From: Lentisphaeria bacterium
GTDB lineage: Bacteria; Verrucomicrobiota; Lentisphaeria; Oligosphaerales; PUNB01
Assembly: GCA_007133055.1 (NCBI GenBank)
Contig: SLNM01000059.1
Location: 1-10,442, forward strand
DNA length: 10,442 nt
Reading direction: 5' to 3'
Both the position numbers and the translations under genes were made by a program. The notes under the pieces were generated by a model. The model saw nothing but the letters and a program-made list of their open reading frames with translations. It was not told the origin of the DNA and made no database searches. This document shows positions 463 through 10,442 of this stretch, in pieces (the first letter of the stretch is position 1; each line of letters begins with the position of its first letter).

Positions 463-1818
463 ATGTTTTGTGAATACCTGAAAAATCCTCTGCGCATACT
501 TTGCATTCGACGTTTTCCTGCGCTGTCGGGCCGCTTCCTGGCACTGGCTCTGATCATCGCTTTGTCCGCAGGATGCGCTCGCATGCGGGCTCGCAGCATA
601 TTGTTCTTGCAGCATGGCACCAGAATTGACCGGCCCGGTCACAAGGCGGAGTTGACCGAACAACTGAATTTTCCGGTTCGCGACAATAATTCGGTTGAAA
701 TACTGCGCTCAGGGACGCATGTGATGGAGAGGAAGTATCGCCTGATCGCGCACGCCAGAGAAAGTATATATATCGAACAGTACATTTTTCGGCATGACAT
801 TGTCGGGGAGATGTTTGTTGACGCCCTGATCGCCAGGGCGGAAGCGGGGGTTGAGGTAAAAGTTATTGTCGACAGAATTGGCAGTCTGGCCGCGGCCCAC
901 ACCCTGGCCAGGAGATTTAGAGGGACGGGGGTCGAGTTCAGGGTTCACAACCCGCTGCTCTCGTGGACCCTCCTGGACATCAACAATCGAAACCATCAGA
1001 AAGTTTTGATCGTCGATGGCCAGGCGGCGATTGTCGCGGGACTGGGCATCGGCGAGGAATACCTTTACTGGCATGATCTGGGAATTCAGGTGGAGGGTGA
1101 AATCCTTTATGATCTGATGCGAATGTTCGAGTATGACTGGAATGCCGCCGGCGCCGGTTATTTCGGCGATCTGCTGCCGCTGCCCGTCCTCGGCCGGCTA
1201 AGGAACCGGGCGGGTGACCGACCGGTCGGGGGGGGGGAATACAGCATAGAGGACTTCAGAGGGGTCGGCGAGGTTCGCTGTAAATTGCTGACTGTCATCC
1301 CGGAATCAGGCAACCATGTGACTTTCGAATACCTGGTCGAACTAATCAACCATGCGACCAGTAAAGTTTACATTGCCAACGCCTATTTTGTTCCCAATAT
1401 TTTTCTGCGAAACGCCCTGGTGGACGCGGCCGAGCGCGGGGTGGACGTAAGGCTGCTGCTGCCAAAGGAGAGCGACTTGCCGATGGTCAGGCGGGCCTCG
1501 CACGTGTTCTACAGCCGATTATTGCGGAACAACATTAGAATCTATGAAAAGGATGGTATTATTTTACACGCCAAATACCTGGTGATCGACGGCAAATGGG
1601 CTTCCATCGGTTCCATCAACATAAACGACCGGGCCTTTTTCATGAATCATGAATCCAATATTCTGGTCATAGACCGGGATATCGGGCGCGAACTGGAGCA
1701 GATATTTTTCGATGACCTGGATCATGCCCGGGAAATCACTTATGAACAATGGCGCCGAAGAGGTGTCCGACAGCGCCTCGAGGAAATCATGGTGGTTCCG
1801 AGCATGCTTTTTTACTGA
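463..1818 (+). CDS. Lipoprotein with two phospholipase D (HKD) domains; cardiolipin synthase-like
   Basis: The protein has 451 residues. It has a positively charged N-terminus, a hydrophobic core (about 24-34) and a lipobox LSAGC, with Cys38 as the likely lipidated residue, so it should be anchored at the outer face of the cytoplasmic membrane or in the outer membrane. Two HKD catalytic motifs follow: H178-x-K180-x4-D185 and H369-x-K371-x4-D376. The second continues into IGSININDRAF and NHESNILV, as in bacterial cardiolipin synthases. Family members transfer or hydrolyse phosphatidyl groups through a phosphohistidine intermediate; cardiolipin synthesis is the likeliest reaction, but other phosphodiesterase activity is possible. 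Membrane-spanning helices typical of ClsA are absent, which is closer to the ClsB/ClsC layout, although a lipobox is unusual for those. The ATG at 463 directly follows an in-frame TAA and is the only usable ATG before the signal peptide; no Shine-Dalgarno is obvious. A run of ten G at 1228-1237 encodes the Gly256-258 region between the two domains. Confidence 0.88.
   Translation: MFCEYLKNPLRILCIRRFPALSGRFLALALIIALSAGCARMRARSILFLQHGTRIDRPGHKAELTEQLNFPVRDNNSVEILRSGTHVMERKYRLIAHARESIYIEQYIFRHDIVGEMFVDALIARAEAGVEVKVIVDRIGSLAAAHTLARRFRGTGVEFRVHNPLLSWTLLDINNRNHQKVLIVDGQAAIVAGLGIGEEYLYWHDLGIQVEGEILYDLMRMFEYDWNAAGAGYFGDLLPLPVLGRLRNRAGDRPVGGGEYSIEDFRGVGEVRCKLLTVIPESGNHVTFEYLVELINHATSKVYIANAYFVPNIFLRNALVDAAERGVDVRLLLPKESDLPMVRRASHVFYSRLLRNNIRIYEKDGIILHAKYLVIDGKWASIGSININDRAFFMNHESNILVIDRDIGRELEQIFFDDLDHAREITYEQWRRRGVRQRLEEIMVVPSMLFY
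1228..1237 (+). repeat. Ten-G homopolymer inside the phospholipase D gene
   Basis: Ten consecutive G are read as GTC GGG GGG GGG GAA (Val-Gly-Gly-Gly-Glu) in the linker between the two HKD domains. The reading frame is the same before and after the tract, so this length is the ON state. A gain or loss of one G would remove the second HKD motif. Confidence 0.95.
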
Positions 1819-1819
1819 G

Positions 1820-1898
1820 ACCTGAATCCCGAAACCTGAACTCTGTCACGAGCAATGCATCATTTCTGAATGTGAATTGAAACAAGCTACCCACTCAA
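1820..1898 (+). repeat. 79 bp dispersed repeat, copy A (upstream of the GHL6 glycosidase gene)
   Basis: This segment matches the reverse complement of 10024-10102 in 78 of 79 positions; the only difference is at 1827. The core, 1828-1898, is identical over 71 bp. It begins two bases after the phospholipase D stop codon and ends 37 bp before the glycosidase ATG at 1936. The start is made of 7 bp units (acctgaa, tcccgaa, acctgaa). The ends show no obvious terminal inverted repeats. No coding function is evident. Both copies point the same way towards the gene they precede. Confidence 0.95.
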
Positions 1899-1909
1899 GT
1901 TGAAAAGGA

Positions 1910-1921
1910 ACCAAATTTGGT
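1910..1921. promoter_or_regulatory. 12 bp perfect palindrome, candidate operator
   Basis: ACCAAATTTGGT is a perfect palindrome, flanked by direct copies of aaaagga (1903-1909 and 1922-1928). It lies 15-26 bp upstream of the glycosidase ATG, between the 79 bp repeat and the ribosome binding site. That is a suitable place for a repressor to block transcription or translation initiation. No regulator gene is present nearby, so this assignment rests on symmetry and position only. Confidence 0.4.
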
Positions 1922-8949: not shown

Positions 8950-9990
8950 TCAAGTTCCGGGCTGGTTAATTGAATTCGGTTCAAGTAAAACCTTGCGTAG
9001 CGATTCGAGATTCCGGCGCATCACCTGTTCGTAATGGTCCAATGGTGCGTCGACCGGACCGTTGGCAACCGGGTCCAATAGAACCACCGGAACGCCGGTT
9101 TCGCGGCTGATCATGCGTGCGGTGCGGTCGGAATACTGAGGTTCAATCAGGATCGCCCGAACATCCTTCTGCCTGATTTCGTTGATAATCCGCAAAACTT
9201 CGGCGGCCGCCGGCTCCTGTCCGGGATGCACATGCAGCAGAGCCACCACCTCCAGGCCCATTTCCGCCGCCAAGTAGTCAAATACATCATGCTGCACCAC
9301 GATGCGGCCATTGTCAATCAGTTTGCCCAGCTCGTGAAACTCGTCGGCCAATTGGCGCAGGCGCTCGCCGTAGGCGGCGGCATTCTGTTCGTAAATCGCC
9401 GTTGCTTCCGGGTTTAACCGAGCCAGGCCGTCGGCAATATTGGCGACGATTTCAGCCGCCAGGCGCGGACTGGCAAACAGATGCGGGTTCCAAGCACCTT
9501 CGTCCCGCCCGTGGCTGCAATCATGGTCATGGTCGTGATCTTGGCCATGATGGTGATCTTGGCCATGATGGTGATGGTGGCCGTGGTGGTCCTGGTGGTC
9601 GTGGTCGCGGTCGTGTGCCACCCCCGGCAAAGGGTCAATCCCGGCCGATGTGTCGATCACCGACAAATGTTGCCCCACCCTGGCCAGTGCCCGATCCAGA
9701 AAAATCTCCATTCCCAGCCCGTTGATTATCAGTACTTCGGCCGCTTCCAGGCGTCGCATATCCTGCGGAGTCAGGACATAGTCGTGCGGACATCCCAGTC
9801 CGGGCGGCAGCATCAACTGCACCTGCAACCCCTCCGCGCCGTGCGTCACGTTGCGGGCAAGCTGATAGATCGGATAGGTGGTTACCAGAACTCGGTCAGG
9901 CTCGGGATTTGTGTTTAAGCCGGCAATCAGCCAGAGCATCAAAACCACCATTGCTACCAGAACCACCCCGCCGACAATCTTCTTTTTCAT
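8950..9990 (-). CDS. znuA: Zinc/manganese-type ABC transporter substrate-binding protein with histidine-rich loop
   Basis: The protein has 346 residues. A KKK N-terminus and a hydrophobic stretch (about 5-24) form a signal peptide or uncleaved anchor; no lipobox is visible. The mature part is a cluster A-I metal-binding protein: VLVTTYPIYQLARNV at 34-48, then CPHDYVLTPQD with ligand His69, NPHLFASP with His170, VQHDVFDYLA with His234, and IEPQYSD (282-288) supplying the acidic ligand. The loop between the first two ligands (126-160) holds 17 histidines in 35 residues, typical of ZnuA-type zinc binders. The gene symbol is by family; manganese or iron specificity cannot be excluded. AGAGGTG stands 7 bp upstream of the ATG. 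It heads the cluster with psd, nitroreductase and recD2. The usual ATPase and permease partners are absent on both sides, so they would have to be elsewhere. The second 79 bp repeat lies 33 bp upstream. Confidence 0.92.
   Translation of the reverse strand: MKKKIVGGVVLVAMVVLMLWLIAGLNTNPEPDRVLVTTYPIYQLARNVTHGAEGLQVQLMLPPGLGCPHDYVLTPQDMRRLEAAEVLIINGLGMEIFLDRALARVGQHLSVIDTSAGIDPLPGVAHDRDHDHQDHHGHHHHHGQDHHHGQDHDHDHDCSHGRDEGAWNPHLFASPRLAAEIVANIADGLARLNPEATAIYEQNAAAYGERLRQLADEFHELGKLIDNGRIVVQHDVFDYLAAEMGLEVVALLHVHPGQEPAAAEVLRIINEIRQKDVRAILIEPQYSDRTARMISRETGVPVVLLDPVANGPVDAPLDHYEQVMRRNLESLRKVLLEPNSINQPGT
9537..9572. repeat. Perfect 18 bp tandem duplication in the histidine-rich loop
   Basis: gatcttggccatgatggt is present twice head to tail, at 9537-9554 and 9555-9572. 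It encodes a duplicated His-His-His-Gly-Gln-Asp unit in the metal-binding loop of the substrate-binding protein. The surrounding 9515-9620 is low-complexity ggtg/catg repeats. The loop length probably varies by slippage in multiples of three. Confidence 0.95.
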
Positions 9991-10023
9991 TTGCTGTCAC
10001 CTCTTTTTGGGTTCTTTCTCACT

Positions 10024-10102
10024 TTGAGTGGGTAGCTTGTTTCAATTCACATTCAGAAATGATGCATTGCTCGTGACAGAGTTCAGGTTTCGGGTTTCAG
10101 GT
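10024..10102 (-). repeat. 79 bp dispersed repeat, copy B (upstream of znuA)
   Basis: This is the inverted partner of 1820-1898, with 71 bp identical (10024-10094) plus 7 of the next 8. Read on the minus strand it ends 33 bp before the znuA ATG, the same arrangement as copy A before its gene. On the distal side its 7 bp units continue further (caggttt at 10084-10090, cgggttt at 10091-10097, caggttt at 10098-10104). The promoter of the znuA cluster must lie in or next to it. Within it, TGTCAC-N5-ATGCA resembles a sigma54 -24/-12 element, with T replacing the second G of the -24 GG and correct spacing to GC. Confidence 0.95.
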
Positions 10103-10107
10103 TTCAG
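10084..10107. repeat. Short 7 bp tandem array (caggttt/cgggttt)
   Basis: Three 7 bp units and a partial fourth run head to tail across the edge of repeat copy B. The reverse complement of tcaggtttcag (10097-10107) occurs at 10432-10442, the very end of the window. The array therefore brackets the multi-stem element in inverted orientation. Confidence 0.85.
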
Positions 10108-10116
10108 TCCATCCAG

Positions 10117-10404
10117 CCTGCTTAATTCACGAGCCAAGTTTGCCGCAGGCTGCCACGAGACAAGCCGCAGCTGTGGATTGCCATTCCGCTTCGCTCCATT
10201 GCTGCACTTCGTGCAGCCTCTATTCCTTACGGAATGGTCTACCGCAAGGCGATGGCTCGTGGCAGGATGCGGTGAAATTGGCCGCCCTTCGGGCGAAGCC
10301 ATTGCGGCGTATCTGTTTTGTTGGAAGGCATTCGCGGTATGCCTATACAGCGTCATGCCTTCCGCCGCACATCTGCACCACACTGGCTTCGTGAATTATT
10401 CAGG
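10117..10404. other. Multi-branched inverted-repeat element (possible structured RNA or nonautonomous mobile element)
   Basis: About 290 bp without a credible gene but with nested complementary arms. The outer pair is 10117-10136 with 10384-10404 (two mismatches and one bulge). Inside are 10143-10159 with 10256-10272 (15 of 17 paired), enclosing 10181-10188 with 10230-10237 (8/8), which encloses the hairpin gctgcac-ttc-gtgcagc at 10201-10217. A second arm is cgccc-ttc-gggcg at 10283-10295, extended by attggc/gccatt. A third is tgcggcg (10303-10309) with cgccgca (10363-10369), enclosing ggaaggcat (10323-10331) with atgccttcc (10355-10363). Together these close into one multi-branched fold. No match to tRNA, tmRNA, RNase P or rRNA was recognised. 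The strand and whether it is transcribed are unknown. Confidence 0.6.
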
Positions 10405-10442
10405 ATAGGTGCTTTCTGCCATTATTCTCTCCTGAAACCTGA

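Follow-up and report, generated by a model that had tools for sequence, protein, structure and literature searches.

A strongly folded, gene-free element from a Lentisphaeria bacterium: a probable non-autonomous transposon with IS1380-type ends

Near the end of a contig from a Lentisphaeria bacterium, a stretch without genes folds into a set of nested stems. Does it encode a structured RNA, or is it a piece of mobile DNA? An earlier note on this locus, made from the letters alone, offered both readings: a structured non-coding RNA, or a non-autonomous mobile element with terminal inverted repeats. The second is upheld here. Positions 10117-10404 of the window (the whole stretch analysed, 10,442 nucleotides) are very probably a non-autonomous transposon (MITE) of IS1380 type, its mobility being predicted by sequence comparison. 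This reading is preferred because the ends are present in many copies, the family has 4-bp duplications and the ends are common to IS1380 insertion sequences.

The window's own genome (G000) is a Lentisphaerota-like MAG of 2.03 Mb in 384 contigs, 68% complete, and the closest named relatives of the window's RecD2-like helicase, at 71-72% identity, come from Lentisphaerae/Lentisphaeria MAGs. Among the genomes compared, G001 and G002 represent two other genera of the family of G000, and G012 represents another family; completeness is 68-88% for G000, G001 and G002.

The folded element

A scan for paired ends delimits a mobile unit, CCTG...CAGG, that coincides exactly with positions 10117-10404. 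Its main features and immediate flanks are as follows.

10117-10404, plus strand: whole miniature element, gene-free, 288 bp by paired-end scan, fold z about -9
10117-10129, plus strand: left terminal inverted repeat CCTGCTTAATTCA, identical in family-A copies
10392-10404, minus strand: right terminal inverted repeat TGAATTATTCAGG, from the end scan and the ends of IS1380 loci
10113-10116, no strand: left flanking tetramer CCAG, the last bases of the left half of a host element, the host match ending exactly at 10116
10405-10408, no strand: right flanking tetramer ATAG, the first bases of the right part of the host element

The claim that this DNA is more organised than random sequence is borne out. 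The RNA minimum free energy of 10117-10404 is -145.2 kcal/mol (z -8.9) and DNA parameters give z -9.3, with none of 200 shuffled sequences as low in either case. Folding of both strands with flanks included (10097-10442) again gave an advantage over shuffles, with z -9.4 on the plus and -8.2 on the minus strand and none of 100 shuffles as low for each. The predicted fold is nested without crossing, as had been proposed, and comprises an outer stem, a left arm, a small CGCCC/GGGCG hairpin and a right arm. The outer stem consists of 14 pairs instead of the roughly 20 suggested earlier. Four perfect arms, of 8, 7, 9 and 7 bp, had been listed, and three of them can be placed: CCATTCCG/CGGAATGG (8 bp, 10181-10188/10230-10237), GGAAGGCAT/ATGCCTTCC (9 bp, 10323-10331/10355-10363) and GCTGCAC/GTGCAGC (7 bp, 10201-10207/10211-10217). 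The second 7-bp arm could not be tied to any one pair.

Open frames across 10117-10404 look by eye like chance, in keeping with the original description of the stretch as gene-free. It is located upstream of an ORF on the minus strand (8950-9990) that by eye is ZnuA-like. It had been said to match no recognised RNA family, and a search of the window against Rfam agrees, with no family at gathering score; at E-values of up to 1 there are three sub-threshold matches, the best at 20.3 bits against a threshold of 58.7, which look like chance. A tRNA and tmRNA scan of the window found none, and promoter and terminator scans found one each, where shuffles give 0.3 and 1.0. The inverted CTGAAAC-type repeats at 10097-10107 and 10432-10442, taken in the earlier note for the edges of the element, do exist but are heptad tracts of the host element.

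Ends, target sites and a candidate transposase

Homologues, looked for in the same genome and in relatives, prove to be numerous. With 40 of 161 first-look candidates scored, at least 63 matches to 10021-10442 were found in G000, in separate modules, and the window repeat had matches in four of 40 genomes: G000, G001, G002 and, weakly, G012. The end pattern TAGCCTGNNTAATTC, at one mismatch or fewer, occurs 235 times in G000, 71 times in G001, 104 times in G002 and 20 times in G012, against 0, 0, 1 and 0 for the reversed pattern. Across the phylum, 21 of 387 genomes contain exact ends, with 683 matches in total compared with 11 for the reversed-pattern control, and the distribution is patchy. 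One exact match in a genome is within chance; counts above chance include G339 (305), G162 (139) and G000 (135).

Pairing of ends in the retrieved loci, with weak pairs counted, gave 73 elements, of which 71 have a flank on either side. Of these 71, 31 are bordered by a perfect 4-bp direct repeat and 40 are not, while repeats of 2, 3, 5, 6, 7 and 8 bp number 1, 0, 0, 0, 0 and 0. Re-pairing the flanks in 1000 trials yielded a mean of 13.2 and a maximum of 23 perfect 4-bp repeats, the mean being high because CTAG is the favourite target. It follows that the unit runs from CCTG to CAGG, with a duplication of 4 bp and NTAR as target; in the family the tetramers are mostly CTAG. The window copy lacks the 4-bp duplication, its flanks CCAG and ATAG being unequal; a duplication of ATAG occurs at two insertions elsewhere (L256, L072). 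When the empty site was restored, it fell within an open frame of 360 bp for two of 42 elements, as against 67 of 136 control positions 190-330 bp away, so that insertions avoid open frames. These 42 come from the 45 elements with TA inside both flanking tetramers, the remaining three lacking flank. An alternative view of the ends, TA with inverted TAGCC...GGCTA and a covarying third base explained by compensation, was dropped because that base belongs to the 4-bp duplication (TTAA vs CTAG).

Several arrangements of the ends deserve mention in their own right. In L182, L186 and L196 adjacent ends share one flanking TA, as though a later element had landed on the terminus of one already present. 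Palindromes of 21 bp without a body (TARCCTGAATWATTCAGGYTA) occur at nine places in six of 377 genomes; such palindromes, TAGCCTGAATAATTCAGGCTA for example, amount to two fused ends (L193, L194 and L196 as well as the nine places), and perhaps represent scars, the products of hairpin deletion. L062, L064, L066 and L067 have a right end only, with start points that differ within the interior. Right-end-only copies at first resembled 5'-truncated retroposons, but two of them, L037 and L069, adjoin the host element.

A candidate for the mover comes from related genomes. G397, a genome of one contig, has three insertion sequences of 1594-1595 bp, framed by CCTGATCTATTCACG...TGAATWATTCAGG and coding for a PF13701 transposase of 471-474 aa; two have perfect duplications (CTAG, CTAA) and the third CTAG/TTAG. 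The one copy tested against the IS1380 family model NF033539 scored 369 bits (cut-off 180), and two copies of the transposase scored about 492 bits against PF13701. Of 197 genomes searched in the class, 12 contain relatives of this transposase at E-values of up to 1e-20. The left end of the window element, CCTGCTTAATTCA, fits the pattern CCTGNNTNATTCA of IS1380 elements in relatives.

This correspondence of ends extends over a set of 27 IS1380 loci in 13 genomes, which are not independent (eight are from G045, five from G403 and three from G397). The search for ends covered 350 bp on the side where one is expected. It gave an exact end at 12 of the 27 loci and in nine of the 13 genomes, where 0.1 locus is expected by chance, and an end with at most one mismatch at 14 loci (0.5 expected). 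Two mismatches bring the number to 26 against 8.5 expected, so that chance accounts for about a third of loci at this setting. Both ends, at two mismatches or fewer, are seen at seven of the 27 loci and at five of the 15 that are near full-length, and four of the seven have a perfect 4-bp duplication. G019, from the window's own order, has an intact IS1380 frame with both ends, and its flanks CTAA/CTAG form an imperfect repeat.

Searches for an IS1380 gene in G000, G001 and G002 (68-88% complete) found none, and PF13701 had no match in G012, G107, G197 or G258, all of which contain ends. G339 has one partial PF13701 gene over the cut-off, with a stop, and the other matches in G339 and G162 are weak; in these two genomes, the richest in exact ends, no examined PF13701 locus is framed by ends. 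A further 15 PF13701 loci, for the most part distant or fragmentary, were scanned with loose patterns that gave mainly background; a clean end adjoins the match at L243 and L251 only. The mover may be absent from these assemblies, may have been lost or may be more distant; an autonomous partner in the same genome is not strictly needed for a MITE. In the mechanism we propose, the ends would be bound in trans by an IS1380 transposase, which would insert the hairpin body at NTAR tetramers. The inverted-repeat interior would be the first source of the strong fold, with possibly a further role as RNA.

Interiors, covariation and the RNA reading

Clustering of 64 elements of 60-300 bp from the retrieved loci gave three families, besides which there are two small clusters and single elements.

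Family A: 233 bp, 15 members, G000-G002
Family B: 175 bp, 22 members, G000 and G001
Family C: 174 bp, 10 members, G339 and G162

The ends are common to families A, B and C and the interiors differ. The canonical family-A copy (L023/L017) reads CCTGCTTAATTCACG...GCATGAATTAATCAGG over 233 bp. Some elements have had their middle exchanged for another repeat with both subterminal pieces kept; in L191, L192, L299, L300 and L031 the middle is a repeat of the type AGCCACAAAAA...ACAGAAGGAAACGAAG and the subterminal pieces remain.

Could the fold instead be kept by selection in a transcript, the sequence acting as a cis-regulatory or small RNA, mobile or not? Strong folding (z about -9) is compatible with this, and compensatory change in relatives, which the earlier note had named as telling, is present in family A. 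There, in an alignment of 12 of the 15 members from three genera, 11 of 68 pairs are changed on both sides (31 cells) and the covariation score is 0.141 compared with 0.075 after shuffling, values that none of 500 shuffles reached; slid versions of the structure do not come near. These figures lean towards covariation, the structure having been drawn from the same alignment. In the left arm, for instance, some copies have CTGCCACGAG/CTCGTGGCAG where another has TTGCTTCGCCGC/GCGGCGGAGCAA. Against an RNA, further pair types in family A are unexceptional, being as high in 52 of 500 shuffles, and changes on both sides are few in families B (1 of 54 pairs) and C (4 of 65). Compensatory changes are also expected of a maintained DNA palindrome.

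Wobble pairs and strand preference bear on the same question. Counted over the union of the structures of both strands, G-U cells outnumber A-C cells in families B (116 vs 40) and C (55 vs 28), as favours an RNA, whereas family A is symmetric at 49 vs 47; the asymmetry, once considered as proof of RNA, is unsupported as such for that family and points neither way in B and C. In pairs common to both strands' structures the counts are 12/7, 4/6 and 7/6 in A, B and C, which speaks against an RNA. One strand is favoured by folding energy in 11 of 12 copies of family A, 19 of 19 of B and seven of nine of C, with consensus energies of -89.0 vs -77.4, -61.7 vs -37.3 and -53.6 vs -43.3, respectively. 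This is again on the side of an RNA; since the copies are related by descent, it represents few independent events.

Parts of the interior of family A are strikingly uniform. The CCGCAAGG loop is found in 12 of 12 copies and CCCTTCGGG in 10 of 12, both of which an RNA would explain, and inner segments (arm bases, the CCGCAAGG loop, the linker) are 98-100% conserved per column compared with 72% in the right loop. The near-invariant inner segments correspond to columns 14-31, 68-77 and 99-141 of alignment A1. Such conservation exceeds what binding or recognition of the ends alone accounts for. On the other hand, the lack of an Rfam family at gathering score, the promoter and terminator scans (one hit each, as above) and interiors that differ between families with common ends all weigh against an RNA. 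Taken as an account of 10117-10404, a structured RNA appears unlikely. For the pairing itself we lean towards a maintained DNA palindrome and keep the RNA reading, most of all for family B.

A broader and doubtful, though possible, extension of the transposon reading is that one transposon end (13 bp plus the NTAR target) has repeatedly captured unlike hairpin bodies across the phylum, that the pairing of these bodies is actively maintained and that their arms, meeting at a stable central hairpin, serve as interchangeable modules. Maintenance might then, equally tentatively, come from selection on cruciform or single-strand folding, from template-switch repair between arms or from an RNA role.

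The mosaic window copy and its place among known elements

The copy in the window is not a simple member of any family. It looks like a hybrid of two elements lying within a third, as judged from matches to other copies, and this triple-nested hybrid build is unusual for a MITE, as is the use of common ends by unlike hairpin bodies. Its parts are listed below.

10117-10293, plus strand: left arm, family A, interrupted by an insert; match to L017/L020/L027/L028/L030
10177-10237, plus strand: second hairpin family in the left loop, replacing the CATT or similar of canonical copies
10285-10293, plus strand: chimera junction CCCTTCGGG, 9 bp, common to the left-arm (A) and right-arm (D) parents
10294-10404, plus strand: right arm of a second family (D); match to L337
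10010-10116, plus strand: left half of the host element, which has GGYTCTTTCTCA...TGAGAAAGARCC ends; match to host copies
10405-10442, plus strand: right part of the host element, truncated where the contig stops; match to host copies

The segments 10115-10176 and 10238-10293 match L017/L020/L027/L028/L030 at 95-100%. In nine of the retrieved copies, three or four bases (CATT or similar) separate the 10115-10176 piece, whole or in part, from the 10238-10293 piece that comes after it, and 10177-10237 is therefore an insert in the window copy. Positions 10175-10238 match another hairpin repeat at 80%, and relatives of 10177-10237 at 75-80% identity are found in L023, L307 and L301 (in L301 over 48 bases only). 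Members of this hairpin family, about 60 bp long, lie at window 10177-10237, L023 901-961, L307 206-265 and L301 492-538; by eye they show apparent compensatory changes (CATTCC/GGAATG vs CGTTCC/GGAACG), and the family is a REP-like candidate. The right-hand portion, 10285-10442, forms a continuous 158-bp match of 96.8% to L337 of G002, a different genus, that spans the right arm and continues into host sequence; further D copies, mostly partial, are present in G000, G001 and G002.

The host element is complete in one place (L007/L040) and measures 472 bp there; its ends are GGYTCTTTCTCA/TGAGAAAGARCC, its duplication is the 8-bp TGAAAAAT, and it is possibly ISL3-like. Five distinct host end pairs are known: the complete copy, a 165-bp one in G002 with the 8-bp repeat TGAAAAAG, and three without a repeat. 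In L040 (491-962) the element contains heptad tracts, (CCTGAAA)n, as well as a short open frame of 70-72 aa, and a one-ended host piece lies at window 1814-1911 (minus strand), at the end of a phospholipase-D-like gene (named by eye). Also in L040, CCATCCAG and ATAGGTG are 181 bp apart.

How might such a copy have arisen? A family-A MITE may have entered at CCAG and a family-D MITE at ATAG, 181 bp apart in one 472-bp host copy. The sequence between them would then have been lost when the two recombined, or a template switch took place, at the 9-bp linker CCCTTCGGG that both share, leaving a product with an A left arm, a D right arm and unequal flanks; a separate hairpin repeat would have inserted into the left loop. 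Two insertions followed by recombination at the linker would account at once for arms of different origin, flanks that do not match and the loss of the host interior. The intermediate with both MITEs and the A parent at CCAG were not seen among the retrieved loci, and this history is one of several possible.

A simpler account of the mosaic, as distinct from the element family, would be that repeats were misjoined where the contig ends. The contig does belong to a MAG and does end in a repeat. Yet the sequence common to A and D at their junction is only 9 bp, and 9 bp is shorter than the usual assembly word lengths. Moreover, at least six contigs of another genus (G002) show the D right arm running directly into the host ATAGGTG; the D half of the arrangement is thereby shown, and we consider an artefact quite unlikely.

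Other known palindromic repeats must also be weighed against the IS1380-type transposon. REP and BIME palindromes are intergenic, form hairpins and occur in many copies, and REPs are tied to RAYT (Y1) transposases, which could in principle have moved the present family too. Y1_Tnp genes are indeed present (two in G000, five in G001, one in G002 and three in G012), and ends with at most one mismatch lie at four of 11 Y1 loci where about 1.1 are expected, three of the four in G001. The RAYT-like loci with nearby ends are L165, L167, L174 and L175. None of the 11 loci, though, has a Y1 gene framed by ends, and the window family, unlike REP/BIME, has 4-bp duplications and inverted ends in common with a DDE transposase; a RAYT mover is thus very improbable. 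A MITE of IS630/Tc1 type with TA duplication, like the Correia/NEMIS elements, agrees with the many copies with TA at both ends and with both end matches in G157 being near IS630-like genes (L202, L221; named by eye), but is scarcely credible and as mover ruled out by the duplication, 4 bp and not 2, with DDE_3 not found in G000, G001 and G012 and only partial in G002, and with ends that match IS1380 elements.

Within the IS1380 family (NF033539), the ends and 4-bp duplications are as on IS1380 elements in related genomes. The insertion sequences there are about 1.6 kb with a 471-474-aa transposase, whereas the window element is 288 bp, lacks a transposase gene and has a folded interior. A further parallel is provided by piggyBac, which is related to the IS1380 family: passages in a study that uses IS1380 as outgroup give TTAA duplications with CTAA, TTAG and GTAA variants (PMC10813416). 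For IS1247, another IS1380 member, a published table gives 5-bp repeats, not 4 (PMC3281130), a difference that counts against the IS1380 reading.

Prokaryotic MITEs such as QMITE2 and Correia, as portrayed in the main text of a review, are small, non-coding and intergenic, with terminal inverted repeats, direct repeats and stable predicted stem-loops (PMC10969869). The window element has the same small non-coding build; it differs in belonging to a group with several interiors per end type and in being a hybrid copy. IS1380 has no occurrence in that main text (PMC10969869). TIMEs, the miniature elements derived from Tn3, are described in sections of PMC4133298 as mosaic and non-autonomous, with stable stem-loops and with recombination between copies proposed. 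According to those sections they have Tn3 ends and are usually single copy, whereas the window element has IS1380-type ends and is multi-copy. Titles and abstract openings returned by a literature search held no description of an IS1380-derived MITE or of these elements; to that extent the IS1380-type MITE group was not found described, MITEs themselves being a known kind.

The analysis thus turns a fold without explanation into a probable mobile element with a candidate transposase family. It also bears on covariation-based RNA discovery in repeat-rich MAGs, where a fold with z of -9 and covariation above that of shuffled alignments can be those of a transposon.
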